Source: a virus. Taken from it: a stretch of 54,394 nt of DNA. Numbering within the stretch: position 1 is the first letter of the stretch; every line of letters starts with the position of its first letter. The DNA lies in IMG/VR virus record IMGVR_UViG_3300032293_001366, positions 1-54,394 of that record; one strand, given 5' to 3'. Position numbers and translations under genes: made by a program. Shown piece after piece: positions 3,880 through 41,565 of the stretch. The notes beneath the pieces were generated by a model, which had not been told where the DNA came from, did no database searches, and worked only from the letters and a program-made list of their open reading frames with translations.

Positions 3880-5712
3880 TTACTCTTGAATGCTACCACC
3901 TGATTGTGTTTGTGTGAAAGTAAAGACAATAAATTCTGCAGGTCTTTGGAATGCAACACCAATTTCACCACTTAGGATACCTTGATTAATATCTTCTTGT
4001 GAATTTGTGCTTGCATCAATCTTTACAAAGAATGCATCTTTAACATTTGAGCCTGCAAGTTGACCATTATTCCACATACCTGTAAGGAATGCAGAAATGT
4101 TATTGCTAAGAATTGACCATAATGCAGGATTATTCTTTTGAAACAGATATTGTTTAGTAGAAAGTCTTACTGTTTCTTGAATAAAATTCATTGTTCTTCT
4201 AAGGGGAATATAGAGATATTGTGGTAATGATGATAATGTTCTAGCACCAAATACAAAAATACCCTTACCACCTGTTGCTAAATCAAGCAAGCGAATGCAA
4301 TTTACACCTGCAGGATTTAAAAATTCTTGTTCAGCATCAGATACGACTCTTTCAAGTGCTACAAGTCCTGACAATTGACCAAATTTATTTAAGCCTGCTG
4401 CTGCACTTGATACACCACCTTCAGGGGCAGGAATACCATCAACCTTAGCAAATAAACCTGCAATATGTCCACAAGGTGGGATAGTAATGGTAGCAGATTG
4501 ACCTGGACGAGCAGGGTCTTGTACCTTGATATGTGGGTAATATAAAGCACCCCAATAGCTATCAACACCTAATGTTGCTTTACGATAGCTATCAATTTCA
4601 GAAGGTGTAAGTCCTTTAGGTGCATCTAAAATAGCAAATTTACCACGAGTTTCAGCATAGCTTAATAATGCACTATGGAAAATTTCATTTGCACGAATAA
4701 GTCCATCTGAATTATCTGTAGATTGTGGAGCTACAATTAAGCTAAAGTCATTGACATTATCAAGAGCATGTAAGCCAAATCCCATAGTAGAATTACCAAT
4801 AAAGCTATCTGAGTCAAAGGATAATTTTTCTGATTGACCAAAGATAAATGCTTGTACAGTTTCAGCAAGAGAAGTAACACCTACAAATTCAGGTGCATCT
4901 AAAGAGTAATCGAATTGAGAATCATCTACCATAATGAAAGAAGAGCCTGCAACATCATCATTGATAACTAATCCAATGTAATCGCTAGCAAATGGATTAA
5001 GAGATACTTGCTTAAATGTTTCAAGTACATTATCCGCACTATCTTTTACTTTAAGATCATAGTGTAAAGAGTTAATTGTGCAAGCTGTAGTAAATGCTGA
5101 GTCAAGAGCAGATGCAAGGAATACCTTATTTTGTACTGCACCTGCAACAACAGTAGTTTCTACCTTAGTGACTTCTAAATATTCAGTAGTGCCACCTTCA
5201 GCAATTTTAAGGATAGTGCCTGCAGAGATACCAATTACTTGTTTCATCAAGATAAACAAAGCACCACCAGATGCATTTGCCTTTAGGTCACCATTTGCAT
5301 TAGCTACATATTTTGAGTTAAGTTTAAGAGATACCTTTAATTTATCCCCTTCTTCCCCAAATGCTTGAAATCCTTTGTAACCTGCTTTGAAAGTAAAATC
5401 ACCAATAGTAGCAGAAGATGGGCTACCTACAAGTGAGTCACCATTGATTGCAGTTAATCTAACGATATAAGCCTTAGAGCCACCGTTATCAAAGAATGCT
5501 TTTACACAAAGATCAAGGTTTTCTGTCTTATAGCAACCACCAAATACTTTTAGGTAATCTTTATATGATGCTACTGCTACGGGTTTTTGTACAGGTCCTT
5601 TTTTTGTAAAGCCAAAGAAAGCAGTTACACCTGTACCCACAGTAATGATAGGGGTAGTTGTAGGATTGCTTTCTTTAATATACACTCCAGGAGTGCCATA
5701 AACTGTTGCCAT
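3880..5712 (-). CDS. contractile tail sheath protein
   Basis: This 610-residue protein opens with the sheath signature YGTPGVYIKE and a GVTAFFGFTKKGP strand. It ends with the conserved C-terminal sheath fold: LWSILSNNISAFLTGMW, a KIDASTNSQEDINQG loop, and a GVAFQRPAEFIVFTF strand that exchanges between subunits. The insertion between roughly residues 100 and 300 is Ala/Ser/Gly-rich and variable, as in other sheaths, where it decorates the outer surface. It precedes the tube gene by 40 bases. The ribosome-binding site is AAAAATGGAG, a one-base variant of the AAAAAACGGAG motif seen at many other starts. Its presence defines the phage as a myovirus. Confidence 0.96.
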   Translation of the reverse strand: MATVYGTPGVYIKESNPTTTPIITVGTGVTAFFGFTKKGPVQKPVAVASYKDYLKVFGGCYKTENLDLCVKAFFDNGGSKAYIVRLTAINGDSLVGSPSSATIGDFTFKAGYKGFQAFGEEGDKLKVSLKLNSKYVANANGDLKANASGGALFILMKQVIGISAGTILKIAEGGTTEYLEVTKVETTVVAGAVQNKVFLASALDSAFTTACTINSLHYDLKVKDSADNVLETFKQVSLNPFASDYIGLVINDDVAGSSFIMVDDSQFDYSLDAPEFVGVTSLAETVQAFIFGQSEKLSFDSDSFIGNSTMGFGLHALDNVNDFSLIVAPQSTDNSDGLIRANEIFHSALLSYAETRGKFAILDAPKGLTPSEIDSYRKATLGVDSYWGALYYPHIKVQDPARPGQSATITIPPCGHIAGLFAKVDGIPAPEGGVSSAAAGLNKFGQLSGLVALERVVSDAEQEFLNPAGVNCIRLLDLATGGKGIFVFGARTLSSLPQYLYIPLRRTMNFIQETVRLSTKQYLFQKNNPALWSILSNNISAFLTGMWNNGQLAGSNVKDAFFVKIDASTNSQEDINQGILSGEIGVAFQRPAEFIVFTFTQTQSGGSIQE

Positions 5713-6619: not shown

Positions 6620-7000
6620 TCAAGGTTTAATGAATGGTGGTGGTTGTACGATTGGTTTTGCTTGTCTTGGTCTTTTATTTTTAAATTGATCATGTATATT
6701 TTGGTATAGCCTATCTGCAACAGCATGAATAGATTGATCTACATCACTTGGTAAGCTAGGGTATGTTTGTTCAAGTGTATTTAAATCCATACTACCATTT
6801 GCAAAGTATTGTATTGTATTTTTAGTTTTACGAATACCTATACCATTATCCATAATGATCTTAATATAATCATTAGTTCCATTATATCGTCTACCTAAAG
6901 ATGGGATTGTTTTTTGTACAGCTCTATCAACACCATCTACAATATCAGTTTTTATACCATCAAAAATATCTAAAAGTTGTTGTTTTGTAGTATCATTCAT
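6620..7000 (-). CDS. putative neck protein (HK97 gp10-like position)
   Basis: This basic protein of 126 residues starts within the stop of the preceding gene (ATGA overlap at 6997-7000), so the two are translationally coupled. It has a helical N-terminus, a middle rich in Asn, Ile and Lys, and a proline-rich C-terminal tail (KPIVQPPPFIKP). Size, charge and position between a head-closure-like protein and a tail-terminator-like protein fit a neck or tail-joining protein. No sequence motif was recognised. Confidence 0.5.
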   Translation of the reverse strand: MNDTTKQQLLDIFDGIKTDIVDGVDRAVQKTIPSLGRRYNGTNDYIKIIMDNGIGIRKTKNTIQYFANGSMDLNTLEQTYPSLPSDVDQSIHAVADRLYQNIHDQFKNKRPRQAKPIVQPPPFIKP

Positions 7001-11537: not shown

Positions 11538-14500
11538 TTAAAATGGCACTTCACCACTATCCTCAGCTACAATAATGTTAGCCATAGATAGTAAATATTG
11601 ATCTTGAGTACGATAATTACCAAATGCTTGTTCTAAATTATTCATTGTTGTGCCATCTACAATAGCATATGTATAACACCTACAGTTTGCATGTGTCCTT
11701 TTAGGAATAAGAGATACACTATATAAACCTGCTGTAGGGTAACCACTTTGAGATAGTAGTAGTTTATCTTCAGGTGTAAGATTATTGCCTAAAGAGTAGA
11801 TTTCACAGATTTCCTTACCACCTTCCCATTTGTGAGATGGGTCAAGTCGCCACTGCACTACCCTTACATCTGTAGCTTTATACATATTGATCATCGTTTC
11901 TCTTACAATTTGAGATTGTTGTAGGTTGATAATTGTGTTTAAGTCTTTAGTCTTAAATTTATTACCTGTCATAAGATCAAGTAATCCAGGCATTTTTGGA
12001 TCTTCACCTAAAAGGAATGTTCTAAGGAAGTTTGTTTTATCACTTGCAATAACTCTTCTTCTATCATCATCATTGTAATTGTTAAGTTGAGCTATAGTTT
12101 CAATGCGATTATTTACCCAAGAGTTTAAGTTACCCATAAAATCTTTCATGTTATCCATAAGATCACTTTGGTATTTACCCATCATATCTAACAATTGAGT
12201 ATTTACAAGTTCATCTACTTGTTCTTTGGTGTATTTCTTTCCGCTTTTTTCTAGTGCATAGATTGTAGTTGCTCTAATTATATCTTCATTACTAGAAAGA
12301 ATGTTATTTACAAATTCACTTGCAAATTTAGTGATTGCATTTGTCATAAGTTCTCTAGTTTTTTTAAGTTGACTTTCTTCTACACCTAAAGAAGTAAAGG
12401 ATAAAGTACCTGTATCAAATACGGTGTAGATTGTATTAGCTAAATCAGTCATATTCTTTGTATTTTGCATAATTGTATAGTTCTGTTTTTTATCTGCATA
12501 TGTAAGTAGTGTGTCTGCTGAATAAGTTTGTCTTATATCTCTATCGTCTATATATCCACCTGTAGAGTCGCCAAGTATGATTTCTTCACCTTGATAATTG
12601 AATATTAAATTACCATCTCTTTGTACCAAATCTTTAATCAATCTTGAGTCGTTGGGATCATTTGCATTTTTAGGATTATACATATCTTGTAAAACACTAT
12701 CATCTATATAAGATGTCATAAATCTAACATATTCATCTTTAGCTTTATCAAAGAATTTGATTGTTTCTCTCTTTGTAAAATCATGTTCAATAGATAAGCT
12801 ATGGTATGATCTTAATAGTCGTTTAAATTCAATACTATCCATAACCATTGGGTTTTCTTTTTGATCATAATCAAATTTATCGTCCCATAATTGATTGATT
12901 GTATCTGATATTTCTAAAGAAAGTGCATCATTTTGTAAGAATAGTGCTTGTATATCCGTTTTTGACTCTCTTATCTTTCTAAGTGTATCTTTTACTGCTT
13001 TAGCTTGATTTTCATCTTTATAGCTTGCAAGATTTTCTAGTGTTACAAAGATAGATGATGTCATATCTTTAATTTGTGTATCTGTTGCATTGTATAATTT
13101 ACCAGGATCACTATCTAGCATCTGTGATATTAGTTTTTGGGCAGAGATATTAGCTAAATTCATTGCTTCTGTATCTGTAAGATTAGGTACTGCCATAAAT
13201 GTTGCAAGAATTTTACTAAAGATTTTATCATATACAAGTTTATTTACCTGTTGTAGTTTCTTATTTGCAAGTAAAAGTCGTTCTTCATCTACATATGGCA
13301 TTCTACCACTACCATCACCATATAATTGCAATAATCCAATAATACCACCATAATTATCATTCATAAGTTTAAGCTGATTATCATAGCTAGAGATCATTGC
13401 AGGTGATATATTATCCTGTATGTAATCCCCCATTTTTTCTATGATTGATCTCATTTGATCAAGTTCAGTAATCTTTGCATCAGGTAGTGTACCTTTTTTA
13501 GGTCTACCTGGTTTTCCTGGTACATATAGTGCTTTAGTTGCTTGTTTTAGTAATTCACTATACATTTCCATTTTTTGGTTTATACCAAACCTACCCTTTA
13601 GATCATGTTTCTTAAGTTGACTAATTGACTCTGTATTGATTGTGGGGTTTAGGTATACTTTACCATCATCAAAAATGATTTTAGCTAAGGTATCAAATTC
13701 TTGAGATAGTTCATTCTCTCTTATTTCATTATATGTATCAAAGTTAGCTTGCATATTTGCTTGGTGTCTACCTTTTTCAAGTGCAGAATTAATCTTTGCT
13801 CTATCATTAAGATTGTATTCATTTACTTTCTGTACACCTACATTATAAATAGCCTCTGAGAATGACATTGCAGGCTTAGAAGAGATTGGATTATTTGATT
13901 TAACAAATTCTTTAAAATCTTCTAGTGCTTTCTTTCTTAACATTTCCGCTTTTTTAGATGTTTTTGAATTGACTAAAGTGTCTACATTTTCTTGGTGTTT
14001 TCTTGTAGCATCTTTGATTGTATCACCTAATTGTTTGATTTGTTCATCAAGTTTCTTAACACTCTCACCTAGTTCATTTTTAAGATCAATGTTATCTATG
14101 TCATTATCAAGTACATTCCTAACAAATTCGTCAAATTTTTCATTCTTAACAGTGCCAATTACAGCAAGTGTATCTCTTACAAGTTGTTCATCTAATCCTG
14201 TTTGTTTAGTAATACCTGTAGTCATAGTAGTATCTACCATTACTCTAGATATTGTAGAGCTATCACTATCTAAGATTGGTCTTAAATTCTCTGTGATATG
14301 TTTTTGCATTTGTTCAGCTAGTTTTTCTGCAAATTCTTGATTTTGGCTATCTGCAATTTCTTTATCGCTAAGGTGTTGTAGTTTGTTTTCTGCCTTTAGT
14401 TTTTTATATTTATCATCTATCTCTTTGTGGATTGTTTCATAAAATGCATTTGTGAACATACTTGTATAACTTGCATCTTTTAGTGAGCCTTGTTTTTGAT

Positions 14501-17500
14501 CTTTCGATTTTTTACTAGTAGCAAGTGTTTCTTCTGCAAGCATCATTTGGTTTATGATTTGTTCTTTAACCTTAGACATCACTTTCTCTATATCTTTTGC
14601 ATCAGATTTAAGTCCATGTAGTGTTTGTAGGATTGCAATTTGTCTACTATCTGTAGGGAAGTTTTTATCTAGTAGTTTTGTAAGTAATTCTCTTGTAAAA
14701 TCAGCTCTAAATTGTTCAGATGATTTACCCTTACCTGCCTCACCACTTGATCTAAAGCGAATTGGTTTTGTATCATCTTTAAGCACAATCAAACCCCCAC
14801 CTTTAGAATTATCACCAGCAGTAGCTCGTATTGTTTCTAAGATAAGTGCAGGGGTAATATGTGACTTTAGAGATGCAGACATACTTACCCTACTATTTAC
14901 ACCAATTTGTCTTGCTTTATCTTTAAGATTATCTGTGTTTGATTTTGTATCTTGTTTTGCAATCAGTTCAGTCTTATTATTCTCTAGTTCTTGTTTTCGT
15001 TGGTTTAAATCTTTAAGTTCATCATTTAGTTTTGCTTGTAATTGTTCAGTAGTCTTTTTAATGATGCGATCTTCTAGTTCATCTATTCTTTTTTGTCGTT
15101 CATTTACGGTTTTCTCTGTAAATAGTATCTTTTCATAGTCTTGTGTGTATTGTTTTACAAATCGTTCTTCTGTTGCTCTTCTATCTCTTAATTGTTCTCT
15201 TAGAATTGCATCTTCATTGATTAGTAGGTGTTCAACTGATATATATTTACCATATTCCTTAACAAGTTGTCTTGCTGCACTTAATTCTAAATCATAAGAG
15301 CCTTTTTTATACTCGTCTTTAGTTACTTCTAGTTTATCTCTATATTCTTCTCTTCTTTTATCTGCATCTTTGAGTATTTGTTGTCTAAAGGTTTCATCAT
15401 AGAATTTGTTGGGGTTTTTATCTATTTCCGTTTTTTGTGCATCTGTCAGTAATCGTTTAAGAACGGTATCATAATCCTGTCTTAAATATTTATCTGTAAT
15501 AAAACCATCATCATCTAGTGATCCTTCAGAATATGCATTAAGTAGAATATCATCTAAGTCATTCATTGCTCTATCAAGTTGTATTAGTCTATCATTGATT
15601 TCACTAGAAGATAGTGTATTTGCAATTAGCTTTTTAGCTTTGGGTAAATCTTCATTGTAAATTCGCAATAGTTCTTTATTTTCTTCCATAGATTTCTTAA
15701 CAAGTAAATCATCATAGGTTGCATTGTAATCACTTTTACCCATAGATCGTCTTACAAGGTCTACCATAGTATCAAATGTATGTTGTTGTGTTACCAATTC
15801 TGATCTAATTTCAGAAGAGCTTGTAAATTTAGCTAGAGAGTAGTTACCATTCTTAGTTTTATATGTTTTATCTTTAAGTTCATCATAGATTTTCTGTGCA
15901 TCTTCTATAGAAAGATTATCATCTACCTTATCAAGTTCGGATTTAAGTTTACTGTAGTTATCCATCAATTGATTTACTTTTTTATCCAATTGCTTGATCT
16001 CAAAAGGTGATTGTGTAGGTGTCATGTTGGCAATGCTAGACATCAGTTCTTCTTTTTTTCTCGTAAAGTATTCGCTTGGTTTTTCGTTTTTACCTATACT
16101 TTCTTGGATTTTAGCATCTACATACATCAAATCTCTTACAAATATCTGTTTAAGATCATAGTATTCTTTAGAGCCATATTTTACAGTAGATTTGTCATTT
16201 GTTTGCCATATCTCTTCTATGACACTTATTGTTCTAGTTTTAGGCACATAATTAAAAATAAGATCACCATCAGGTGTTTTCTCAGGTCTACCAAATTGAT
16301 CTAATACCTGTATTTTGTCATATACAATTTTACCATCTTTATCTTTGACTATTTCTTTCTTTGCATTAACAAGTTCATATTTAGGTATAGCAATGTCTGA
16401 ATTTACTTGGAAATTGTGAGAGTACTTCATTGCAGATAGTTGGTAAGCTAAACCATATTTTGTACCCTTTAATTTATCCATATCTTCTATTGTAGTATTA
16501 CCCTTGTTGATACTATTGTAGATTTGATCAGGTGTTTCATTTGCTGGTTTTTGGTATAGTGCTTTCTCTATCTCTTGGAATTCTTTTAGTCTATTTTCAA
16601 AGTCTTTGTTTATGCTATCTGTTTTAATTCCGTTTTTTTGTAGTACCTTTCTTGCTCTATCAAATTTATAATACTCTTGCATAATTTCATTTGAGTAACC
16701 ATCGCTAGAAACAACATCTACATATTTGTCAATCGTTCGTTTAAGGATAGTGTTCTCTAATTGTTTTGTAATGTTCTCTACCTTATACTCTATCACCTTA
16801 TTATTTAGTTTAATTGCTTGTGGGTCTTGTGGGTCTACCTTAGATAATTCAGCAAGTAAATCACTAGAGTTTTTAAGATTATCCTTAAGTTTATCTATGT
16901 TATCATTTAGTTTATCTGCAAGTCGTGTAGCAATTCGTTTCTTACTATCTTCTACTTCCTTTTCCATTCTCATTCTTGCATCATATTCAGCTATCTTTTC
17001 ACGAATACGATCTTGTTGTTCCTGTTCATATTGTAATGCAAATGCTCTATTCTCTTCTTTGATTGCTTGTTGTTCTAGTAAATAGTCAATGTAGTTTTGT
17101 TTTTCTGTTTCAGAAAATGGTATTGATCTATTTTGATTTCTATCTAATCGCTTGTTGATACGAGATTGTTTTCTCTCACCAAATGTAGCTCTCATCTCAG
17201 GTGTAATGATAGGTCTATTTAAGTAAAATTCATTGATTGATCTAGAGATTTCAGCCTTATAATTGTTATCATTGATATATTTATCTGAATTGATGATTTC
17301 TTCTTTCTTTGTAGGATCAGTTTCTCTCATCAATTGGTATTGTTTATTTACAATCAATTGTGTATCTATAAGTAGCTTTCTTTTAACCTCAGGATCAACA
17401 GGTTTATCTAAGACGATTGCAACAACAATACCTTTATATAGCTTTACATCATAAGGTAGGTTTTTAAGTGTATCTTTAAGTTCTTGTTCATAAGCATGAT

Positions 17501-20027
17501 TTTTATGACTCCTATTCTTAGTCTTTACATCTTCTATATGTGATAATTGTAATTGATCTGTATCTTTAGTGACACTCTCTATAAATTTACCATTTGTAAT
17601 TGCAGATCGCATAAATTTAGCAAATTCACTATCTACAAGTTGTTCTATTGCATCATTATCTAGTGATGGATTTCTATCTTTAATATCTTTTCTAAATGCA
17701 GGTTTTACAGTATCTTCTAAATGTTTTTCTGTTGCTAGGATTTCATTGTTTAGTTTTTTTGTAATTTCCGCTTTTTTTAGTTCTTCACTATCACCTGTTT
17801 CAGTGTATAGGTTATCTACAGCCCTTGTAAATTCCTTTTCATTATCTAGTTTAAGTTTGTTAATCAGTTGTATCTTTGATTTCTCATCAAGGTCTATAGG
17901 TCTATTGTAATCTTCTAGTTTTTGGTATGATTTGACTTCAGGCTTATATACTTCCAATTTTACTTTAAGATCAAGGTCAACAGGTTTATTCTCTTTATTC
18001 TTGATAGTGTATTTGATTGCATTAAATCTACCCTTAGAGATTTGATTACCATCTTGATCTAATTTACCCCTATATGCACTCAATTTATCTTTAATTGCAA
18101 ATGCAAGTCTTTGTGTGCCTACTTTATGTTTTTTGGTATCTGTTTTATATTCGCTAGGATCAATTAGAGTATATTGGTTTTTCTTTGTATCTAAATAGAG
18201 TTTTACATCAACACCATTTACTTCTATGATTTTTGAGTGTCGTCTATCCTTAGATGTTTGATCTTCATTTGCTCTATCATAAGGCACAACAGGTAATTGT
18301 GTTTTATCATCTATCTCTGTAACAGGCACACCATTAACTTCTGTGATACCCTTTTCAATTAGTTTTTCTTTCTTTCGTTCAAGTAGCCATTTATCTTGTG
18401 CATCTCTTCTAGCTTGTTTTTGATCAATTTCATATTGTTGTTTATTCTTTTCATATTGTGTAAGAATATCTACCTTAAATGTATCTTTAAATGCAATTGC
18501 ACTTTCTTTAGTAGGTAAGTTTTCACCAAAGATAGCAATAATCTTACCATCATATACCCTTGCATATCCTTGTGGTATTTGTACCCAAGATGATTGTTTA
18601 GCAAATTTCTTTGTATCAAAATCGCTAGGAAATTCGGAAGGGTCAAAAACATCTACAAGTTTATAATCCTTATCCTTATCATATTTAGGTGTTTGAGATA
18701 TAGCACCTGCATAAGCTCTATTTGTGCCATCAAAATCCATCTTCTGTTTAGATGTAAGATTACCAAATAGTTTTTGTTCTCGTTCTAAAGCAAATTGTTC
18801 TTTTCTTTGTTTGTTGAGTTCAATTTGTTTTTCTTTTTCCAGCTTTTTTTGTTGTTGTTCTTTATCTTTTTTTTCTTTTAGTCTTTGTTTCTCTAGTTCA
18901 GCATCTTGTAATTTCTTTTGTCGTTCTTGTTCTTCTAGTTTAGCTTTTTCTTGTTTATCTAAGAGTTCTTGTTTTTTGATATTCTCTTTATCTATTTTCT
19001 CTTGTGCTTTTCTTTCTTTCTCTTTTAATTGCTCTAATCTCTTTCTTTCCTTTTCCGTTTTTTTATCTATAGTTGGCTCTTGTTTTATATCTTCTGTAGT
19101 TTCTTTAGGTTCTTCTACAATCTTAGGTAACTTTAAACTCTCAGGTTTTGTATTATTTAATCTTTCATTTACTTGATTAAGTAGTTTAGTGTTTTGATCT
19201 AATTTTTCTTGTATTCTAATCTTAGTTTGTTCTTCAATTGATATTTTAGTTTCTAAAGAGGTGATATATGAATTTACACTAGATGAATATGCTCTAGGAA
19301 TACCCCTACCAAGTTTTGCTTGTTGTATATCAAATTGTAAGTTTTGTATTACCTTATCTATTAAGTTGATAGCCTTTGTATTATCCTTGATTGTATCTTT
19401 AGTATCCTTTAGTAATTGTTCGTCATCTACAATTTGAATAGTGTTTTTAATCTTATTTGTAATTGCTTGATCTACAATTTGTTTATCTGTAAGTGTTGGT
19501 TGTTTTACCTGTTCAATCTCTATCAATTTTGCAATCGTATCTAATGCACCTGATTTTTCAAGGAAAGATAATCTTGCTTTAAGTTTAATATCTAGCATAT
19601 CTTGAATGTATTTTTGTTGTATATCAAACATTCTTAATTTACTAGCTAAGGTGATTTGTTGTTGTAGTTCTTGTCTAGCAAAATCAGATCGTTCAGTTTC
19701 AAGTCTTGCTTTAAGTTCATCTAAATTATCAAGTTTTGATGCTACATCTTGTTCTATTTGTTTTCTAATTTCACTAGAGATATTGTTTTTTAGTAAATCC
19801 TTAATCTTATCATAGTCAACAACAGGTTTGCTCTCTTTTTCTATTTGTCGTTTAATAGCAGGGATTTTTGTTTTCTCTATATTATCCGAATATGTAGCTA
19901 AAAAGTCAGAAGTATCTACCTTTATTCCCTTTTTTCTAAGTTCTTCAATATAACCTAAAGGATTGTTTTTAATGAATAATTGATCTATAAGCTGTAATTT
20001 ATCGTATGGTATAAAGTTTGATGCCAT
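11538..20027 (-). CDS. giant MuF-like head morphogenesis protein (2829 residues)
   Basis: A single uninterrupted frame of 8.5 kb directly downstream of the portal gene. The C-terminal 130 residues match the MuF (SPP1 gp7-like) pattern: VVQWRLDPSHKWEGG, a CEIY segment and KRTHANCRCYTY, whose histidine and cysteines are conserved in the family. Ordinary MuF proteins have 250-500 residues. The extra 2,600 or so residues are nearly all charged helix, including a Lys/Glu/Gln-rich single-helix stretch around residues 310-420. Two possible small folded islands lie near 590-700 (IIEVNGVDVKLYLD) and near 1,720-1,800 (GGGLIVLKDDTKPIRFRSSG). It may be packed in the capsid and ejected with DNA. No protease, ADP-ribosyltransferase or nuclease motif was recognised. 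Confidence 0.8.
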   Translation of the reverse strand: MASNFIPYDKLQLIDQLFIKNNPLGYIEELRKKGIKVDTSDFLATYSDNIEKTKIPAIKRQIEKESKPVVDYDKIKDLLKNNISSEIRKQIEQDVASKLDNLDELKARLETERSDFARQELQQQITLASKLRMFDIQQKYIQDMLDIKLKARLSFLEKSGALDTIAKLIEIEQVKQPTLTDKQIVDQAITNKIKNTIQIVDDEQLLKDTKDTIKDNTKAINLIDKVIQNLQFDIQQAKLGRGIPRAYSSSVNSYITSLETKISIEEQTKIRIQEKLDQNTKLLNQVNERLNNTKPESLKLPKIVEEPKETTEDIKQEPTIDKKTEKERKRLEQLKEKERKAQEKIDKENIKKQELLDKQEKAKLEEQERQKKLQDAELEKQRLKEKKDKEQQQKKLEKEKQIELNKQRKEQFALEREQKLFGNLTSKQKMDFDGTNRAYAGAISQTPKYDKDKDYKLVDVFDPSEFPSDFDTKKFAKQSSWVQIPQGYARVYDGKIIAIFGENLPTKESAIAFKDTFKVDILTQYEKNKQQYEIDQKQARRDAQDKWLLERKKEKLIEKGITEVNGVPVTEIDDKTQLPVVPYDRANEDQTSKDRRHSKIIEVNGVDVKLYLDTKKNQYTLIDPSEYKTDTKKHKVGTQRLAFAIKDKLSAYRGKLDQDGNQISKGRFNAIKYTIKNKENKPVDLDLKVKLEVYKPEVKSYQKLEDYNRPIDLDEKSKIQLINKLKLDNEKEFTRAVDNLYTETGDSEELKKAEITKKLNNEILATEKHLEDTVKPAFRKDIKDRNPSLDNDAIEQLVDSEFAKFMRSAITNGKFIESVTKDTDQLQLSHIEDVKTKNRSHKNHAYEQELKDTLKNLPYDVKLYKGIVVAIVLDKPVDPEVKRKLLIDTQLIVNKQYQLMRETDPTKKEEIINSDKYINDNNYKAEISRSINEFYLNRPIITPEMRATFGERKQSRINKRLDRNQNRSIPFSETEKQNYIDYLLEQQAIKEENRAFALQYEQEQQDRIREKIAEYDARMRMEKEVEDSKKRIATRLADKLNDNIDKLKDNLKNSSDLLAELSKVDPQDPQAIKLNNKVIEYKVENITKQLENTILKRTIDKYVDVVSSDGYSNEIMQEYYKFDRARKVLQKNGIKTDSINKDFENRLKEFQEIEKALYQKPANETPDQIYNSINKGNTTIEDMDKLKGTKYGLAYQLSAMKYSHNFQVNSDIAIPKYELVNAKKEIVKDKDGKIVYDKIQVLDQFGRPEKTPDGDLIFNYVPKTRTISVIEEIWQTNDKSTVKYGSKEYYDLKQIFVRDLMYVDAKIQESIGKNEKPSEYFTRKKEELMSSIANMTPTQSPFEIKQLDKKVNQLMDNYSKLKSELDKVDDNLSIEDAQKIYDELKDKTYKTKNGNYSLAKFTSSSEIRSELVTQQHTFDTMVDLVRRSMGKSDYNATYDDLLVKKSMEENKELLRIYNEDLPKAKKLIANTLSSSEINDRLIQLDRAMNDLDDILLNAYSEGSLDDDGFITDKYLRQDYDTVLKRLLTDAQKTEIDKNPNKFYDETFRQQILKDADKRREEYRDKLEVTKDEYKKGSYDLELSAARQLVKEYGKYISVEHLLINEDAILREQLRDRRATEERFVKQYTQDYEKILFTEKTVNERQKRIDELEDRIIKKTTEQLQAKLNDELKDLNQRKQELENNKTELIAKQDTKSNTDNLKDKARQIGVNSRVSMSASLKSHITPALILETIRATAGDNSKGGGLIVLKDDTKPIRFRSSGEAGKGKSSEQFRADFTRELLTKLLDKNFPTDSRQIAILQTLHGLKSDAKDIEKVMSKVKEQIINQMMLAEETLATSKKSKDQKQGSLKDASYTSMFTNAFYETIHKEIDDKYKKLKAENKLQHLSDKEIADSQNQEFAEKLAEQMQKHITENLRPILDSDSSTISRVMVDTTMTTGITKQTGLDEQLVRDTLAVIGTVKNEKFDEFVRNVLDNDIDNIDLKNELGESVKKLDEQIKQLGDTIKDATRKHQENVDTLVNSKTSKKAEMLRKKALEDFKEFVKSNNPISSKPAMSFSEAIYNVGVQKVNEYNLNDRAKINSALEKGRHQANMQANFDTYNEIRENELSQEFDTLAKIIFDDGKVYLNPTINTESISQLKKHDLKGRFGINQKMEMYSELLKQATKALYVPGKPGRPKKGTLPDAKITELDQMRSIIEKMGDYIQDNISPAMISSYDNQLKLMNDNYGGIIGLLQLYGDGSGRMPYVDEERLLLANKKLQQVNKLVYDKIFSKILATFMAVPNLTDTEAMNLANISAQKLISQMLDSDPGKLYNATDTQIKDMTSSIFVTLENLASYKDENQAKAVKDTLRKIRESKTDIQALFLQNDALSLEISDTINQLWDDKFDYDQKENPMVMDSIEFKRLLRSYHSLSIEHDFTKRETIKFFDKAKDEYVRFMTSYIDDSVLQDMYNPKNANDPNDSRLIKDLVQRDGNLIFNYQGEEIILGDSTGGYIDDRDIRQTYSADTLLTYADKKQNYTIMQNTKNMTDLANTIYTVFDTGTLSFTSLGVEESQLKKTRELMTNAITKFASEFVNNILSSNEDIIRATTIYALEKSGKKYTKEQVDELVNTQLLDMMGKYQSDLMDNMKDFMGNLNSWVNNRIETIAQLNNYNDDDRRRVIASDKTNFLRTFLLGEDPKMPGLLDLMTGNKFKTKDLNTIINLQQSQIVRETMINMYKATDVRVVQWRLDPSHKWEGGKEICEIYSLGNNLTPEDKLLLSQSGYPTAGLYSVSLIPKRTHANCRCYTYAIVDGTTMNNLEQAFGNYRTQDQYLLSMANIIVAEDSGEVPF

Positions 20028-26423: not shown

Positions 26424-26814
26424 TTGTTCTTTCCTCTACTAACTTTCTAATTTCATCTGTACTCATCTCTTGTACATTGAAACCAAGCACCCCCATCTTA
26501 TTTACTAACACCTCTTTTTGGTATGCCCACCTAGACCTATTGTAATTCTGTGTCCTCTTCATTGGTATCTTCTCTATAGTATAGTTCCCATTCAACATAT
26601 TTAGAAATACATAAGCAGGTTTCTCATTCTTTATCGTGTAGCAATTCACATACTCTAAATTCATCTCATCACATACCCTTAGTGCCTCTAACCTTTTCTT
26701 AAACCACTTTACACCATCTACAGTATCTAAACTATATACTTGTAAGTAACCTACCGCCTGCTTACCTGTACGACCACTTTCTGTAAATCGCTTTTTTCTT
26801 ACTTTGAATACCAT
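26413..26814 (-). CDS. hypothetical protein
   Basis: A basic, aromatic-rich protein of 133 residues, with the N-terminal KVRKKRFTESGRTGKQAVGY and many Tyr, Asn and Val residues after it. It overlaps both neighbours (PTPS-like upstream by 16 bases, RusA downstream by 11), so it is part of one coupled operon. The first 80 residues could be a small nucleic-acid-binding domain. No family was recognised. Confidence 0.75.
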   Translation of the reverse strand: MVFKVRKKRFTESGRTGKQAVGYLQVYSLDTVDGVKWFKKRLEALRVCDEMNLEYVNCYTIKNEKPAYVFLNMLNGNYTIEKIPMKRTQNYNRSRWAYQKEVLVNKMGVLGFNVQEMSTDEIRKLVEERTNES

Positions 26815-27236
26815 ATCCCCCCACTATTCTTGTCATTCTCACGACACTCTACACTAATTAACCGTACACGATCTCCATATAATTCTTCTAGCTTTTCTTT
26901 TACATAGCTACCAACATACTCTGCACTTCCTTCCATTCCTACATTTTCATAGACAGTTAATTTGCAACCTTCTTGTTGTTCTAAAGCTAAAAACATAGGT
27001 AACAACGGATCACTCTCATCTATCAGTAATGTATGGTCATATTTAGACAATAGCCACTCTTGTAACCATTTTAAACCACCAAAATCAACAACAAATCCCA
27101 TTTCATCTAGATTATCAGACTCAAACCAAAATTCAAATGACCTAGAATACCCATGCACCCACTTACAATGACCGTTGTGTCGCCATCTCCTGTGGGCACA
27201 TGGTAAATTGCCTATCGTTTTTGAACTTCTATACAT
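26799..27236 (-). CDS. queD: 6-pyruvoyl-tetrahydropterin synthase / QueD-like enzyme
   Basis: This 145-residue protein carries the PTPS/QueD signature: LPCAHRRWRHNGHCKWVHGY (zinc-ligand His15, catalytic-type Cys24, His28), FEFWF, then MGFVVDFGGLK, a YDHTLL segment and SAEYVGSYVKEKL. The usual HGH zinc motif reads HGY here, so one ligand is replaced. QueD makes 6-carboxytetrahydropterin on the queuosine/7-deazaguanine route. In phages, members of this pathway often support deazaguanine modification of phage DNA. No QueC, QueE, FolE or DpdA/TGT partner is visible in the window. Its leader has the AAAAAATGGA variant. Confidence 0.75.
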   Translation of the reverse strand: MYRSSKTIGNLPCAHRRWRHNGHCKWVHGYSRSFEFWFESDNLDEMGFVVDFGGLKWLQEWLLSKYDHTLLIDESDPLLPMFLALEQQEGCKLTVYENVGMEGSAEYVGSYVKEKLEELYGDRVRLISVECRENDKNSGGIWYSK

Positions 27237-28436
27237 TCTTTTCTCTTTCTGTCATTCCATTTTTTCTCTATTGTTATTGAATGACATACCTACTTTATCA
27301 TTTTTTCCACTTTATTCAACTTTTTTTTATACCCTTTAGTGTAAAGCTCACTGGGGGCGATTTTCTCCCACTCTCATTTTCCTTATCGAACCTTTTATTT
27401 ACCAAAATAGGCATTTATCACTTAACATTTCATTATCACTTTCTATATTTTCTCTTCTATACATTTTTACAGTTACCATTGCTAAAGACAATTTGAGCCC
27501 TTGTTCTTTTTATACCATTCATTATTTATCTTAGTTTGTTTATGTCATTCTCTTTATTTACCTTTATTTATTTCCCATTTTTTTCATATCCATTTTATTC
27601 ACATTCCATTTTTAGCAATTTATATAGCTAGAACATTCAATCATTGTGCCTGTAGTTTATCCACATTTTTACACCACCATTTTTTATTATCCATTTTTAT
27701 CCATATTTGCTAGAAATTTGAGCATTTATCACATTCACATTTTTTCTTTCTACACCTTTTTTCTCTTTTACTGCATATTCTCTTCACAATTTTATGCATA
27801 TAACTTTTTTTACCTTAGTTTTTTATCATCACATTTTTTTACCTTAGTATTCTTACAGGCACTCTAGTGTAAAGAGTAGGTGCTTGCCACTCACACTACT
27901 TCATCTTTTTTGGTCGATAACCAACCTTTAGTATATCACAATTGAGCCATAACACTTGAGCCATTGCCATAACCATAACCATACCATAGATTGACTATTC
28001 TTTGGATTGACTATTTACTTATATGCTTAACCATTATACTACTTTGATTGTCTACTCTTTAGCTATTACTTATTACTATACTATACTTATATAGCTAGAG
28101 AATTATTGTTTGGATTTTTACCATTCCGTTTTTTAGTATGTTGCTTGATCATGTGCTATTGGTTGACCATTTCATTACCATTCTTTAGCTATCTCTTTAT
28201 CCATCACTTGATTATGTTTATTGTTCTCTTGATTATGTTTGTTGTGCCTTTAGTTTATACCATCATTGTAACTTGATTGACTATTCATTGTTATAATGTA
28301 TCACTTATTATTATATAGCTAGAAGTAGTTTAGTTTTATTGCCTTCCGTTTTTTACCATACCCATTTTTTACCATTTGTGCCTTGAGTACCTGCAGGCAT
28401 ACGATTGTGTTCTTTTCTTTTAATTTTTTTTCTCAT

Positions 28437-28444
28437 GGGGGGGG
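28437..28444 (+). repeat. G8 homopolymer tract
   Basis: Eight consecutive G followed by TATCT in a region of very low GC. It is outside any gene and belongs to the GGGGTATCT set of intergenic words. Confidence 0.7.
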
Positions 28445-28701
28445 TATCTTTTTCTATTATCATTTGTTTTGGGCTCATGTTCAGTATCATGTTCACTAAA
28501 TAGTTTATATTTTACTTCTAGTCGTGTTCAGCCTTTCTCATTTTTCATATGGTCAACATGTTCATTTTATACCTAAACACTACCAAAAAACGGTGCATAT
28601 ATACACCCCCTTAAAAATTTATACCTTTATTCTTACCATCAGTTTCATTCTACTTTTATATCTCTTTCTCTTGTTTATATTGATTTACTACCTTTTAGCA
28701 T

Positions 28702-28743
28702 TTATCACTCTATCATTTTTATGTTATCACTCTATCATTTTTA
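28702..28743 (+). repeat. two 20-bp direct repeats, 22-bp period
   Basis: TTATCACTCTATCATTTTTA occurs at 28702-28721 and again at 28724-28743, exactly. The first copy overlaps a GCATTTATCAC word. Confidence 0.8.
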
Positions 28744-28790
28744 CTTGTGATATACTTAGAACATACTTTTTAAATATTCATTATTGACAA

Positions 28791-29100
28791 GTCACCTTAT
28801 ATCATCTATCAGTTCAAGTCATGCATTCTTATCATATAGCAAGCATTTTAAAGCATTCTTTAAACAATAGATTATGATTGATACTATAATAAGAATGTAT
28901 GCATTTATCACCACAAAAACGAGCTAAAAGGTGGCTTAAATTGAATTTTTGAGCATTGGATTTATCACTTTTGAGCATATATAAACCTATAACTACCTAC
29001 TTGAATTATTGATAGGATTTAAAATTTTAGATCTAAACTATCTTAAATTGAATGTTTTAAAATCTCTTTTTATGTGTTTAGTATGGATTTAAAACACTAG
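28791..29100. other. intergenic AT-rich region left of the iteron array
   Basis: No gene is seen. GCATTCTTAT near 28824 and ATAAGAATG near 28888 are partly complementary. A TATAAT box on the plus strand (28875-28880) has TAAACA 18 bases before it, so a short plus-strand RNA is possible. CACC and GGTG around 28909-28934 could pair. A fifth GCATTTATCAC word is at 28901-28911. Confidence 0.35.
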
Positions 29101-29110
29101 CTAAAAACAT

Positions 29111-29142
29111 GATAAAACACTGATAAAACACTGATAAACACT
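29111..29142 (+). repeat. three tandem GATAAAACACT iterons
   Basis: GATAAAACACT at 29111 and 29122, then GATAAACACT at 29133, head to tail. AAACACTAGCTAA flanks the array on both sides (about 29092 and 29136). Confidence 0.8.
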
Positions 29143-29146
29143 AGCT

Positions 29147-29291
29147 AAGAATGAATGATGATCATTGATTATTCTTATCTGGTCCCAACACTGATTAAAG
29201 ATTGATCACTGATTGAAATTCACTGATTGAGATTGATCACTGATTGAGATTGATTTAAATCATGTTTAGATCATCATCATCATTCATTCTT
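29147..29291. repeat. 16-bp perfect inverted repeats enclosing the iteron array
   Basis: AAGAATGAATGATGAT at 29147-29162 is exactly complementary to ATCATCATTCATTCTT at 29276-29291. The 113 bases between hold the four-copy tandem repeat. The left arm runs into an ATGATGATCAT palindrome. Confidence 0.8.
29189..29254 (+). repeat. four tandem 17-bp iterons (CACTGATTGAGATTGAT)
   Basis: Copies begin at 29189 (18 bases, two differences), 29207 (truncated to 14), 29221 and 29238 (both exact 17-mers), joined without spacers. The head-to-tail order and AT-rich flanks are typical of a replication or partition protein-binding site. Confidence 0.8.
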
Positions 29292-29378
29292 TTACTCTGG
29301 ACACTAGCAACAATTTTAAACTGATTTTATTATATTGTATTGACTTGATTTTTATTTGCTAGCGATGGACTGGACGGC

Positions 29379-30134
29379 TTACTTAATCAATTTGCGATAT
29401 ACATGATTGACTAAATAGTCATGATATTCATACAAAACGAAATCACCAAAACGACCGTAAAAAATCTCACTTCTTGAACGGCTAAACTGAGATGAAATAA
29501 TGAAATTTGATAGCTTATATTCAAGAGTTTTAATTGTTTCTCTTAGACCGTCAATTTCAATTTCTGATAAATTGCCTGATTGAGTTTGATCATGTAGATA
29601 TTTAATTTTTAACTCTAGATCATACATTTCACAAAAAATTTCATGCGATAAACCTTGATAAAAACAAAGTAAATTTTGATCATGTATTTTATCAAGTGAT
29701 CTTTTTTGATCAGGAGCATAAAGACAAGGCAATTCAATTTTTGAAAATTCATATTGAAGGCCGTAAAGACCAAGCCAAGCAAACAAAGATGATTGATTGA
29801 TACGGTGATACGGGATAGCAAAACAGACCACAAACTCAACTTTATCATGAATTGAGTTTAAACCGCTAAAGATCACTTTTTGAGATAGCAAATAATATGC
29901 TTTATCATCACTATCTTTTTCAATGCTGATCTTTTTTTCATCAAAATGAATGACTTGACAATCTTTAATAATTTCTATTTGATCATCATTCTTTACGATA
30001 GCGACAGACTTTTTAAACAATGGATTTACTAAAAAGCATTGACCATTGTTTAAAAGGTCATTTAGATCATAGATAGCTACTAAATAATCTGATGAGTGAT
30101 CTAATAAACTTTTGATTTGTGTTTTAGTTTTCAC
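29379..30134 (-). CDS. hypothetical protein in compositionally distinct cluster
   Basis: This 251-residue protein uses a GTG start with AGGAT nine bases upstream. It is acidic, rich in Asp, Leu, Ile, Tyr and Phe, with a helical segment around residues 170-215 (YDLELKIKYLHDQTQ, then LSEIEIDGLRETIKTLEYKL) and an aromatic C-terminus (FYGRFGDFVLYEYHDYLV). The mRNA-sense strand is U-rich, opposite to most phage genes here. It lies downstream of the hairpin terminator at 30224-30257 and next to the iteron array. It is not recognisable as a known Rep protein, although that position is where one would look for a cognate factor. Function unknown. Confidence 0.75.
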   Translation of the reverse strand: MKTKTQIKSLLDHSSDYLVAIYDLNDLLNNGQCFLVNPLFKKSVAIVKNDDQIEIIKDCQVIHFDEKKISIEKDSDDKAYYLLSQKVIFSGLNSIHDKVEFVVCFAIPYHRINQSSLFAWLGLYGLQYEFSKIELPCLYAPDQKRSLDKIHDQNLLCFYQGLSHEIFCEMYDLELKIKYLHDQTQSGNLSEIEIDGLRETIKTLEYKLSNFIISSQFSRSRSEIFYGRFGDFVLYEYHDYLVNHVYRKLIK

Positions 30135-30223
30135 TAGATTTTATCCTATGGAAACAGGTTTTAAGTTTTTCAATGTTGACACATAGCCGCAGCAGATGAA
30201 AAACGATTTTTTAGCTTAAAATG

Positions 30224-30257
30224 AAAAAAGCCGGCTATCGCGTGGAGATAACCGACT
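30224..30257 (-). terminator. rho-independent terminator
   Basis: On the minus strand an 11-bp stem (30257-30247 with 30239-30229, two G-T pairs) encloses a 7-base loop and is followed by six U. It follows the two-gene unit ending at 30305 and is the strongest terminator in the window. Confidence 0.85.
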
Positions 30258-30281
30258 TTAAACACTACCTAAAGGCAACAA

Positions 30282-30290
30282 GGGGGGGGG
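30282..30290 (+). repeat. G9 homopolymer tract
   Basis: Nine G in the space between the gene ending at 30305 and its terminator, giving C9 in the 3' untranslated RNA. Confidence 0.75.
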
Positions 30291-30304
30291 AGCAAGTCAA
30301 AAAG

Positions 30305-30526
30305 TTAGCGAATGAATGCAACTAATTGACGATTTGAGCAGGTCAGAACGATTTCGATCTTTTCTTTGCCTGAGCGAGTATTTACGATTTGATAACTCAC
30401 TTGACCAAGACAAGAGAAAATTTCGCCGTTCTGATTGATTACATAAGATTTTTCATTGACCTTAAAACAAGAATTTTTAATCAATTCAATCTCATTCATG
30501 CTATAAACCATTTTTAAAGTAGTCAT
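30305..30526 (-). CDS. small hypothetical protein
   Basis: The start at 30526 (MTTLKMVYSM) lies just after the stop of the upstream gene and gives 73 residues. A longer reading from 30577 would begin with an unlikely poly-leucine run inside that gene. The product looks like a small beta-rich domain (KVNEKSYVINQNGEIFSCL, YQIVNTRSGKEKIEIVLTC). A similar 'GKNSYLMKKNG' lead-in is present in the protein at 31953-32234, so the two may be distantly related. The tail (NRQLVAFIR) lies just before the G9 tract and the terminator. Confidence 0.65.
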   Translation of the reverse strand: MTTLKMVYSMNEIELIKNSCFKVNEKSYVINQNGEIFSCLGQVSYQIVNTRSGKEKIEIVLTCSNRQLVAFIR

Positions 30527-30527
30527 T

Positions 30528-31391
30528 TTACTTGCTACTTTCATCAATGGATTGAGCAGGAGCAACAACAGCAGCATTTAAAACAGCATCAAATAAACTT
30601 TGAATTTCAATGTCTAGCAATAAGCCACTTTGATTTAAAGTTTCAATGAGTGAATGATCATATTTTGATTTTAGATGATCAATCTTATTTTGAGCCATTT
30701 TTTCACAACCGAGAGAGATTAAGCATTCAGCAAAACTTGACCAACTCAAAGAAATGAAAGCACATGAAACAGGTGCATGAATTTCTAAACTCTTTTTTGA
30801 TTTTACCGCTTGAGCAATAAGAAGAGTTTTTAAGAACTTTTGAACTTGCCAGCTATACAAGCCCGCATGAGTTTTATCATTCTTATCTTCTGAATAAGCC
30901 TTAGAATAAGCAAAGACTTGAAAATCAGTTAGATTTGTAATTGCACCTTGAAAAATGATCTTACCGCTGAAATTGTCATCACTATCAACGGAGCCGATAC
31001 CATTTTTTGAAATTGCTTGAGAATATGCAAGATCAAAATCACTTGATAAACGGCAAAAACCTTTAATATCATGGAGAGATACTAAAGCACCAAAGACGGA
31101 AAGACCACAACCAGCGAAATCTAAAAATTGATCTTCTAAAGATTTCAATGTCTTTTTTTCAACCTTGATCTTTTGAATTTCTTTTAATACTTTTTGTTTA
31201 GGAGCGGTCAATAAACTCATCATATCTAAAGAGATTGAGCGATTAACAACAACAGGACCAGCAACGGCAAGAGTACCGCCAACAACAGGGGCAACAACGG
31301 CACCACCAACAACGGCACCGCTTGAAATTTCACTAGCAGGCACAACGGCACCGCTTGAAATTTGATTTTTGATTGACTTTTTAGCAGTCAT
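30528..31391 (-). CDS. hypothetical protein with Ala/Val/Gly repeat N-terminus
   Basis: This 287-residue protein starts with low-complexity repeats (SSGAVVPASEISSGAVVGG) encoded by two copies of a 21-bp direct repeat 33 bp apart. A middle region follows with FAGCGLSVFGALVSLHDI and the C-terminal helices DHLKSKYDHSLIETLNQSG. The G+C is visibly higher than in the surrounding phage genes and the mRNA is U-rich, so it looks acquired. It is the first gene of a unit with its own promoter (31520-31548) and terminator (30224-30257). No family was recognised. The abundant short protein it may encode could be structural or an interference factor, but nothing shows which. Confidence 0.75.
   Translation of the reverse strand: MTAKKSIKNQISSGAVVPASEISSGAVVGGAVVAPVVGGTLAVAGPVVVNRSISLDMMSLLTAPKQKVLKEIQKIKVEKKTLKSLEDQFLDFAGCGLSVFGALVSLHDIKGFCRLSSDFDLAYSQAISKNGIGSVDSDDNFSGKIIFQGAITNLTDFQVFAYSKAYSEDKNDKTHAGLYSWQVQKFLKTLLIAQAVKSKKSLEIHAPVSCAFISLSWSSFAECLISLGCEKMAQNKIDHLKSKYDHSLIETLNQSGLLLDIEIQSLFDAVLNAAVVAPAQSIDESSK
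31310..31363 (+). repeat. 21-bp direct repeats, 33-bp period, within gene
   Basis: Identical 21-base copies at 31310-31330 and 31343-31363. The 33-base period keeps the frame and encodes an 11-residue repeat. Confidence 0.8.
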
Positions 31392-31952
31392 TTTTTACCT
31401 CATAAAGAAGAGTAAAGGGGAAAAGAGAAAGCCTAGTTTTATCTATCTTTTGATCATCACTTTCTAAAGCTGAATAAGATAGATCAAAGAACCGGCAAAA
31501 ACGATTTATCTAATTCTTTTATATAAGGCAAATAAAAAACAATGTAAAAGATGATTGAAAATGAATACAACCTCTTGTATTTTACCCCCTAGAAAACCAC
31601 ACTTTTAAAGAAACGGAAGGGACAAAAACAGTCGCAAACCCCGATAAATAGGGCAATTCTTAGAAAATGAGAAGTTGACTTTATTCTTTACTAGGGAAGA
31701 GAATTTTTTTTATTGATCTAAAGTGATGGATTTAGTGTAAAAATTGGGTATTTTTCTTTATTGTGTTTATGGTATTATTACTATACTGTTAATTATATGA
31801 GGGTAACTATCTTATAGAGGGGGGTTTTGTAAAGTTCCGTTTTTTTTAGTGTGTTATTCTTATATTGTATATAGGGGGGTATCTAAAAAGTGTTTTAATA
31901 TTCCGTTTTTTTGATGTTCCGTTTTTTCATGTGGTACCTGTAGTGGTGGTAT
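31392..31952. other. 560-bp intergenic region with promoter, G tracts and three CCGTTTTTT copies
   Basis: No gene is seen. It holds the promoter at 31520-31548, a short hairpin AATACAA-CCTC-TTGTATT near 31563, G6 tracts at 31819 and 31874, GGGGTATCT at 31876-31884, and CCGTTTTTT at 31837, 31903 and 31919. The motif cluster is the densest in the window. Confidence 0.6.
31520..31548 (-). promoter_or_regulatory. promoter of the compositionally distinct gene pair
   Basis: TTTACA, 17 bases, TATATA, with a T-rich spacer lacking the CACTTAGATTGT block, so it is unlike the main phage promoter family. It lies 130 bases upstream of the 31391 start. Confidence 0.5.
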
Positions 31953-33202: not shown

Positions 33203-33820
33203 TTAGGTTAAATCCAAGATTGCATTTTGTAGCATACTTGAAAATTCTTCTGTGTATTGTTGTCTAAAGGTGTGAGCATTGCGAATGTGTTCATTTTGCT
33301 GATCACTTGGTAAAGCATTGTAAATATTGCAATCAACACAAATGGCTAATTCTTCAACAATGTGATCATAGGATTGAACTTGAATACAATTTGATACCAA
33401 TCTAGCGAATTGCATAGGTGTAACTCTATAGAACACATTGCTCCAAATTTGCATTAAAACTTTAATTTGTGCATCGCTTAAAACATCATCACCACAATCA
33501 ATTTTGATGAAAGATGATTTTGTGCTTAAAGTCATAGCTACAAAAGAATGATCAACAGGAACATCATCTAATGTTGTGATGAGATTTGCAGTGTTTTGCT
33601 TATCAGTGATTTTTTCTGCCAATCGGTATGCACCATCATTTGAGCTAGTGAATGAGTCATGCTTTGGTAATACGATGTGCTTGAGAGTATCTGCATCAAC
33701 ATTGGCAACAATTCTAACAGTGTGCATACGATCATTGTGTTGAATGAACACTGCATTTGATTTTGTGCTAGAGAGATGATTATTAAATACGAAAACAGAA
33801 TAGCTTGTTTGTGTAGCCAT
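33203..33820 (-). CDS. hypothetical protein
   Basis: This 205-residue protein has an N-terminal beta-rich half (YSVFVFNNHLSSTKSNAVFI, HTVRIVANVDADTL) and a helical C-terminal half (FRQQYTEEFSSMLQNAILDL). The start has AAAAAACGGAG nine bases away. It is the first gene behind the class promoter at 33926-33954. No family was recognised. Confidence 0.75.
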   Translation of the reverse strand: MATQTSYSVFVFNNHLSSTKSNAVFIQHNDRMHTVRIVANVDADTLKHIVLPKHDSFTSSNDGAYRLAEKITDKQNTANLITTLDDVPVDHSFVAMTLSTKSSFIKIDCGDDVLSDAQIKVLMQIWSNVFYRVTPMQFARLVSNCIQVQSYDHIVEELAICVDCNIYNALPSDQQNEHIRNAHTFRQQYTEEFSSMLQNAILDLT

Positions 33821-35971: not shown

Positions 35972-37099
35972 TCAATCATTTAGCAATAAATTGAATAGGT
36001 GTCTAAAGGCTTTCTCAGCAACATCAGGGATTACACCATTACCAAGTAAAGCTAATTCTTCTTCAATACTTGAAAAATCGACCTTGAGTTCTTCATAGTC
36101 CAACCTATTGGTAACCCCATCAACATTTCTACCCATCTCGGATTGATACTCTCGTTGTAGATTACTAATTTCTTGATCTGTAACATGATCATATCTAGAA
36201 GTGTTATCCGTAGTTGTTGTAGTTTGGTTAGATCGGTTTCTTCTAGCATCAATTTTACTGTTTCTGAAAATGGTTCTAGGTGGTTCAAAAAAGAATTGTT
36301 TGCGATCTCGTCCAACAGGTATTGCAATGGATTTATTGTAATCAAGTGATGCTCTAGTTCTAAGAGATACTTTCTGTAATACATACTTTTTACCACTATT
36401 GATAGGTGACTTCTTACGATCATCTTTTTTGATTTTGTGTATAAGATTTGATAGTTTCCGTTGGCTGTTTCCATCATTTTTAATGGGCTGTCGAAAAAGT
36501 TTGAAAAACTCTTTAAGTTTCTCTTTTTTGATATCAAATCTTTTTCCCAAAATAAACACTCTTTTCCTTGTATGTGGCAAGCCAATTTCTCTCGCTGAGA
36601 ATATTCCAATTTTAACTTGGTAACCAATTCGTTCCAATTCTCTGCATACATGTAGCAATACAGGTGTTCCTTGTGGGTCATTCCAATCTGTTCCTTGCAA
36701 TGTTGATGTGATAATTCCTGGCACATTTTCCAAGAAAACAAAGGCAGGTCTACATTCAATGATACCTTGTTTAATGTATGGGAATAAGTGTCTAGGATCT
36801 GTGTCTGCTCTTGTGTATCCTCCTGTTGAAAAAGGTTGGCATGGGAATCCACCTGATAAGATGTCCACATGTCCAAGAAATTGCTTGAATGGGAAAGTTT
36901 TAAGGTTTGTCCAAATAGGGGCAGGTGTAAGTTGTTCTTGCTCCATTTTGTGTATAAGGTTTTCGATTGCATACTTTTCGATTTCACAAAAAGCGATTGC
37001 TCGCAAACTTGGCAAAACTCGCTCAAGTCCAAGATCAATTCCGCCGTATCCTGTACAAAGGGATAGGTGATTAAATTTTTTGGTATTACTAACATCCAT
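35972..37099 (-). CDS. dcm: DNA (cytosine-5) methyltransferase
   Basis: This 375-residue enzyme carries the ordered C5-MTase motifs: I, LSLCTGYGGIDLGLE (12-26); IV, GGFPCQPFS with nucleophile Cys87; VI, FLENVPG (123-129); VIII, IGLPHTRKRVFILG (172-185); and X, LLGNGVIPDVAEKAF (351-365). The target-recognition region is about 190-330. It transfers a methyl group from SAM to cytosine, in phages usually to resist host restriction or regulate transcription. No partner restriction enzyme is visible. A second frame is open across almost the whole gene and encodes a typical methyltransferase C-terminal motif at 36097-36147 (see findings). The gene starts just downstream of the promoter at 37166. Confidence 0.92.
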   Translation of the reverse strand: MDVSNTKKFNHLSLCTGYGGIDLGLERVLPSLRAIAFCEIEKYAIENLIHKMEQEQLTPAPIWTNLKTFPFKQFLGHVDILSGGFPCQPFSTGGYTRADTDPRHLFPYIKQGIIECRPAFVFLENVPGIITSTLQGTDWNDPQGTPVLLHVCRELERIGYQVKIGIFSAREIGLPHTRKRVFILGKRFDIKKEKLKEFFKLFRQPIKNDGNSQRKLSNLIHKIKKDDRKKSPINSGKKYVLQKVSLRTRASLDYNKSIAIPVGRDRKQFFFEPPRTIFRNSKIDARRNRSNQTTTTTDNTSRYDHVTDQEISNLQREYQSEMGRNVDGVTNRLDYEELKVDFSSIEEELALLGNGVIPDVAEKAFRHLFNLLLND

Positions 37100-41329: not shown

Positions 41330-41565
41330 GTTTAATCATAAATGTTTTTTAATCTAAAGAATGTTGAATAGTGATTTAAATGATCAGGTTTAGATCAAGT
41401 TTATATTATAGATTATTTATTAAACATAGTTTAAAATTCATGTATAAACATTCAATTTAAGATAGGTTATAAGCATTTTAAAGCATAGTCATTAAGTTTA
41501 AATAGGTATATAAGGGAAATGAACAGGTATCAATTCTTGGTATGTTTCTTAATATATTCTTGATT

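Follow-up and report, generated by a model that had tools for sequence, protein, structure and literature searches.

The origin of phage lambda (lambda O/ori-lambda) contains about four direct repeats of 17-19 bp, located beside an AT-rich stretch. The repeat cluster described here resembles the lambdoid iteron origins, including the lambda-type origins of Stx phages, in this arrangement of roughly four direct repeats next to AT-rich DNA. It differs from them in that the array does not lie within an initiator gene, no O-like protein was found in its module, and the units are irregular in length. In the Vibrio cholerae PLE replicon (RepA_N and ori iterons), the repeats are likewise found in a long noncoding region, and the origin repeats co-vary with the binding protein RepA (PMC7145576, PMC8263062). 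The likeness extends to the way in which repeats and encoded protein vary together among close relatives, with exchange of the module. PLE, on the contrary, is a satellite with semi-palindromic repeats of ~30 bp, whereas the present locus belongs to a phage. The pac site of phage ICP1 is located in a 1.3-kb orfless space (PMC7145576), and the present region resembles it in lacking genes over a kilobase scale and in coming from a lytic phage whose genome is in the 100-kb size class; however, the ICP1 site was mapped by virion ends, while here sequence alone was used and the array is allelic. Finally, phased A-tract upstream promoter regions share the 11-bp A-tract period, present here in both alleles and near a composition switch, but no validated promoter lies nearby and the CACTGATT units of this locus are not A-tract repeats. 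Most likely, the array belongs to a replication origin or to a regulatory start region.

The window, i.e., the whole stretch of 54,394 nucleotides that was analyzed, is a linear IMG/VR record representing half of a ~104.5-kb phage genome. Its only close relative, contig 3300044844_000854 (104,574 bp; hereafter G001), is the same genome in circularly permuted form, spans nearly all of the window and is 97-98% identical to it outside 29.1-37.2 kb. The intergenic overlap of the two G001 ends, at window 41.4 kb, gives the genome size. The phage is of the lytic type and myovirus-like, with nearly all genes on one strand. HMMs support the portal, TerL, RusA, QueD, primase, DnaB and DnaC genes, and the sheath, tube and capsid genes were named by eye from their sequences; G001 further encodes a DNA polymerase A, RecA, a B12-type ribonucleotide reductase and a ParB-like gene. 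One ORF of 2829 aa (11538-20027) is placed between the portal and the capsid-side genes, and its end resembles, by eye, a minor-head/MuF-type stretch. The genes folE, queC, queD and a queE-like radical-SAM gene (G001 63.5-69.4 kb and 88.7 kb; window 26799-27236) are accompanied by a candidate DpdA-like gene without a Pfam match. Because of this gene set, the phage probably makes 7-deazaguanine-modified DNA.

The array is situated in a gap of 2.1 kb between QueD (to 27236) and a gene of 251 aa (from 29379), upstream of QueD-RusA-TerL. The gap is AT-rich and gene-free, as the preliminary description had it, and the matching gap in the 104-kb G001 is the longest gene-free stretch of that genome. 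Array A (29111-29142, plus strand) has a period of 11 bp, with phased A-tracts, and consists of GATAAAACACT at 29111 and 29122, head to tail, followed by GATAAACACT at 29133; ACACTAGCTAA words are found on either side. Of the three GATAAAACACT units originally reported, two are exact, but the third is one A short. Array B (29189-29254, plus strand) is composed of four iteron-like units led by CACTGATT, starting at 29189, 29207, 29221 and 29238. The number of units stands, but their uniform length of 17 bp does not: they measure 18, 14, 17 and 17 bp, and only the last two are an identical exact 17-mer. The perfect 16-bp inverted repeat was described correctly, with its left arm AAGAATGAATGATGAT at 29147-29162 (plus strand) and its right arm ATCATCATTCATTCTT at 29276-29291 (minus strand), exactly 113 bp apart, and with arms that enclose the CACTGATT units but not the GATAAAACACT units. 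One repeat search gave 19-nt arms that are 95% complementary. A TGATCTAAACATGATTTAAATCA element occupies 29251-29277 (minus strand), and a similar element is present at 41372-41397 (minus strand) in another intergenic region.

The repeat cluster is real. In 200 dinucleotide shuffles of the 300-bp array stretch, the inverted arms reached at most 12 (16 observed) and the tandem score at most 11 (18 observed). The top tandem-repeat scores of the 54-kb window are those of the noncoding gap with the array, and only the region at ~22.2-22.6 kb equals the array itself. An origin is supported by repeats far beyond those of the shuffles and by their location in the longest stretch of the genome that lacks genes. 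A structural RNA is a weak reading, as the z-score for strand folding is -0.9 for DNA and -1.8 for RNA.

Iteron origins are recognized by several direct repeats of ~17-22 bp with an AT-rich unwinding stretch beside them. Here, four units of 14-18 bp, irregular in length, neighbor a stretch with 25-27% GC (28640-29090; taken at 28.65-29.1 kb for this comparison), which is conserved in G001 and contains AAGCATTTTAAAGCAT and CTATCTTAAATTGAATGTTT. Its 100-bp segment at 28,977 is the eighth least stable in 54 kb, so it is not unique in this respect. The gap also holds a strand-composition switch (28790-28840, minus strand), with the purine/pyrimidine change point at 28,833. The noncoding DNA from 27237 to 28790, purine-rich on the minus strand and upstream of QueD-RusA-TerL, gave no match in an Rfam search and is probably a long leader or start zone before these genes. 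Fine profiling placed the switch 250-450 bp from the arrays, so that the idea of a skew starting exactly at the array was rejected.

The main rival to an origin is transcription control, which we consider rather unlikely. In that case, the array would serve a promoter near 28.8 kb, as its upstream binding region or as upstream curved DNA, and this promoter would drive QueD-RusA-TerL leftwards via a 1.5-kb noncoding leader. A transcription start would agree with the switch at 28,833, with which a weak extended -10-like site, TGaTATAAG, matched by eye only, coincides (at about 28796-28806, minus strand). However, no good -35 is present at 28.8 kb, the promoter-like matches in the array region are not above chance (18 vs. 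24.5 expected from shuffles), and 250-450 bp separate the array from the putative start. Curvature is also in favor of this rival: the 80-bp peak at 29113, in Array A, is at the 99.96th percentile, and both alleles, in the window and in G001, combine 11-bp phased A-tracts with curvature in the top 0.04%, as computed from wedge parameters. Yet the genome has other such peaks.

The main support for transcription control comes from window 41.2-41.6 kb and G001 89.4-89.9 kb, two further intergenic regions that share motifs with the array region and carry a strong sigma-70-like promoter, TTGAyTTTTTCACTAAGAAATGATATAAT. Further copies of the elements AAGCATTTTAAAGCAT, CTATCTTAAATTGAATGTTT and TGATCTAAACnTGAT with TTTAAATCA are found at window 41.4 kb and, in part, also at G001 89.5 kb; these shared motifs and promoters weaken the case for an origin. 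In the G001 copy of the 41-kb region, 11-bp TCTAAACTTGA units are located upstream of the promoter. A CACTTAG/CACTAAG-like spacer element precedes the -10 at short distance at window 41251, 44053 and 45275 (all minus strand) and at G001 186 and 89880; its sharing suggests a contact for a phage-specific activator or sigma factor.

Comparison with G001 reveals that the array belongs to an exchangeable module (29079-31450), with 36-66% DNA identity in 200-bp steps between flanks that are mostly 94-100% identical (85% in the step just beyond the right edge). The drop in identity is abrupt and falls on the left edge of the arrays, at 29,079; the recovery begins at ~31,450, a short way upstream of the 287-aa gene. 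The arrays and the genes of 251, 90 and 287 aa are replaced by another version in an otherwise 97% identical phage. In G001, the array is built of ~6 CATGAAAACAG units of 11 bp and ~23 CAACAG/CGACAG units of 6-7 bases each, words that are strongly enriched within the G001 module, and no inverted repeat longer than 10 bp is present in that allele. Direct repeats are kept at the site, while the repeat words and the inverted repeat are not. The check for an array missing from all relatives had an unexpected outcome: G001, the only close relative, lacks this array sequence but carries a different array at the corresponding position. Every large difference between the window and G001 is clustered in 29.1-37.2 kb, and a 205-aa gene (33203-33820) and a C-5 cytosine methyltransferase gene (35972-37099) of the window are missing from G001.

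The lack of conservation of the array sequence and of the inverted repeat is what would be seen if the tandem repeats were a functionless byproduct of slippage or duplication in a fast-evolving, exchanged module. The CAACAG/CGACAG run of G001 is microsatellite-like, and its words spread into adjacent gaps and a coding end. We nevertheless find this explanation doubtful, as G001 and, with other sequences, two distant relatives also have repeats at this position, and as the left edge of the module coincides with the edge of the array. The allelic exchange also bears on a pac (packaging) or DNA-terminus site beside the terminase genes, an improbable reading. The gene-free DNA just upstream of RusA/TerL is where such a site might be placed, like the ICP1 pac in its orfless space (PMC7145576), and contigs L007-L010 start near the matching skew peak. 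However, both the window and G001 assemble straight across the array, G001 closes at 41.4 kb, and a site for a nearly identical terminase should not be swapped between the two phages.

The 251-aa protein (29379-30134, minus strand) is a candidate binder of the array and shares just 26% identity with its positional counterpart in G001, a protein of 227 aa. The other two module members are better preserved: the 90-aa protein (30305-30577, minus strand) is 36% identical to its 106-aa counterpart, and the 287-aa protein (30528-31391, minus strand) 56-58% identical to one of 297 aa. A different direct-repeat array next to a 26%-identical protein, between flanks of mostly 94-100% identity, supports an origin, even if this co-variation is seen in one pair of close genomes and may be merely joint divergence. 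No match to the module proteins was identified in Pfam, PHROGs or NCBIfam, nothing credible was obtained among PDB sequences, and the structure models (pLDDT 43 and 31) are too poor for a fold search or for recognizing a DNA-binding fold. The lack of a match to any initiator family and the poor models weaken the origin reading, as does the distance of more than 20 kb that separates the array from the genes for helicase loading (DnaC, DnaB and a 303-aa candidate initiator). No repeat array was found near the candidate initiator gene on the DnaC side (52.9-53.8 kb). A further difference from PLE is that RepA_N gave no match in the window or G001, in a search that had no working positive control. 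Searches for further relatives among viral contigs with the 251-aa protein and its alignment, the 287-aa alignment, the 133-aa and 237-aa neighbors and a flank DNA pattern returned only G001 or nothing. A TerL search of genome contigs retrieved no relative, and phage GenBank records contained no match to the array region or the module proteins.

The two distant relatives, G002 and G006, have TerL proteins ~64% identical to that of the window. They are ~73% identical to each other on both sides, but the 4-5 kb upstream of RusA/TerL cannot be aligned. This stretch contains repeats of 23, 17 and 10 bp together with clustered TTGTACAA words, and the proteins beside it are just 29% identical to each other. 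The repeat clusters at the matching place in contigs L004 and L005, of other sequence, support an origin. As no homology between the module proteins of the two phage groups was detected with phmmer or hhalign, the resemblance of G002 and G006 is one of layout and not proof of common descent.

The strand composition at the locus also supports an origin, through the sharp switch at 28,833, an excursion of the skew at 4-fold sites and the skew minima of relatives. The 4-fold-site GC skew of G001 is ~-0.35 genome-wide, rises to +0.40 just downstream of the switch and decays to background over ~12 kb. Cumulative GC skew, a check along the lines proposed in the preliminary description, is lowest in G001 (7,999), G002 (20,562) and G006 (15,949) at or near the matching gap. 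No two-replichore pattern was found in G001 outside the local excursion (p = 0.57), and a global replichore skew was rejected once that excursion was removed. The origin reading is weakened by this local character, by the distance of 2.6 kb between the G001 minimum and the array, and by the window genome, where the skew is confounded with, and inseparable from, the coding strand and may be caused by transcription. In contigs L008 (1278-5131) and L009 (610-2697), however, synonymous sites show a strong preference for G on the TerL strand, whichever way a gene is oriented, a bias that in L008 decays within ~4 kb of the contig start. The same direction in both gene orientations indicates that this skew is positional in these phages, replication-like rather than a coding effect; it supports an origin and argues against transcription control.

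The other two functions first proposed for the locus are disfavored because no ParA, tyrosine integrase or Rep_3 was found. A partition or incompatibility centromere of a phage-plasmid is very improbable. It could draw on the ParB-like protein (ParB_N and HTH_ParB) encoded at G001 83892-84854, in a phage of the lytic type, and on two parS-like sites in the matching region of L005. Yet this gene is ~31 kb away on the circle rather than adjacent, and no parS (up to three mismatches) was found in the window or G001. Both records lack ParA (PF13614; control detected in 14/14 genomes) and the Rep_3 initiator (PF01051; positive control detected). The L005 sites, TGTTTCACGTGAAACG at 5549-5564 and 6881-6896 (G006 14344 and 15676), are one base off the canonical bacterial parS and lie inside the gene-poor region; no ParB is present in the 25 kb examined of that contig, and the other relatives contain no such sites. 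It is possible that the L005 phage uses the ParB of its host. As for a recombinase site, no tyrosine integrase (PF00589, the one recombinase family searched for) was found in the window or G001 (positive control detected), and the inverted repeat is not conserved as a core, as it is missing from the G001 allele.

A replication origin is compatible with the data and the best single reading, in view of the iteron-like repeats, the AT-rich neighbor, the switch and the skew minima of the relatives; our tentative preference is for an array that forms the iteron-like part of a phage replication-start region. The direct repeats would be bound by a phage protein, for which the quickly diverging 251-aa protein next to them is a plausible candidate, and binding would open the adjoining AT-rich stretch (28.65-29.09 kb). 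DNA synthesis would then start at ~28.8 kb and proceed leftwards, across the noncoding DNA and in the direction of TerL. Together with its three genes, the array would constitute one module exchanged between phage strains. A more specific version, speculative and unlikely on present evidence, is a swappable origin module: the 251/227-aa proteins would represent a new initiator family with private iterons, exchanged as a unit between strains, and close relatives would thus differ in origin specificity, perhaps escaping satellites or origin-targeting nucleases.

The start of replication of large lytic phages is unknown in most lineages. Repeat words and a neighboring protein that change together in phages 97% identical would allow a direct test. 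If confirmed, such a pattern would be a sign that origin specificity is under selection in phages, as reported for satellites (PMC8263062).
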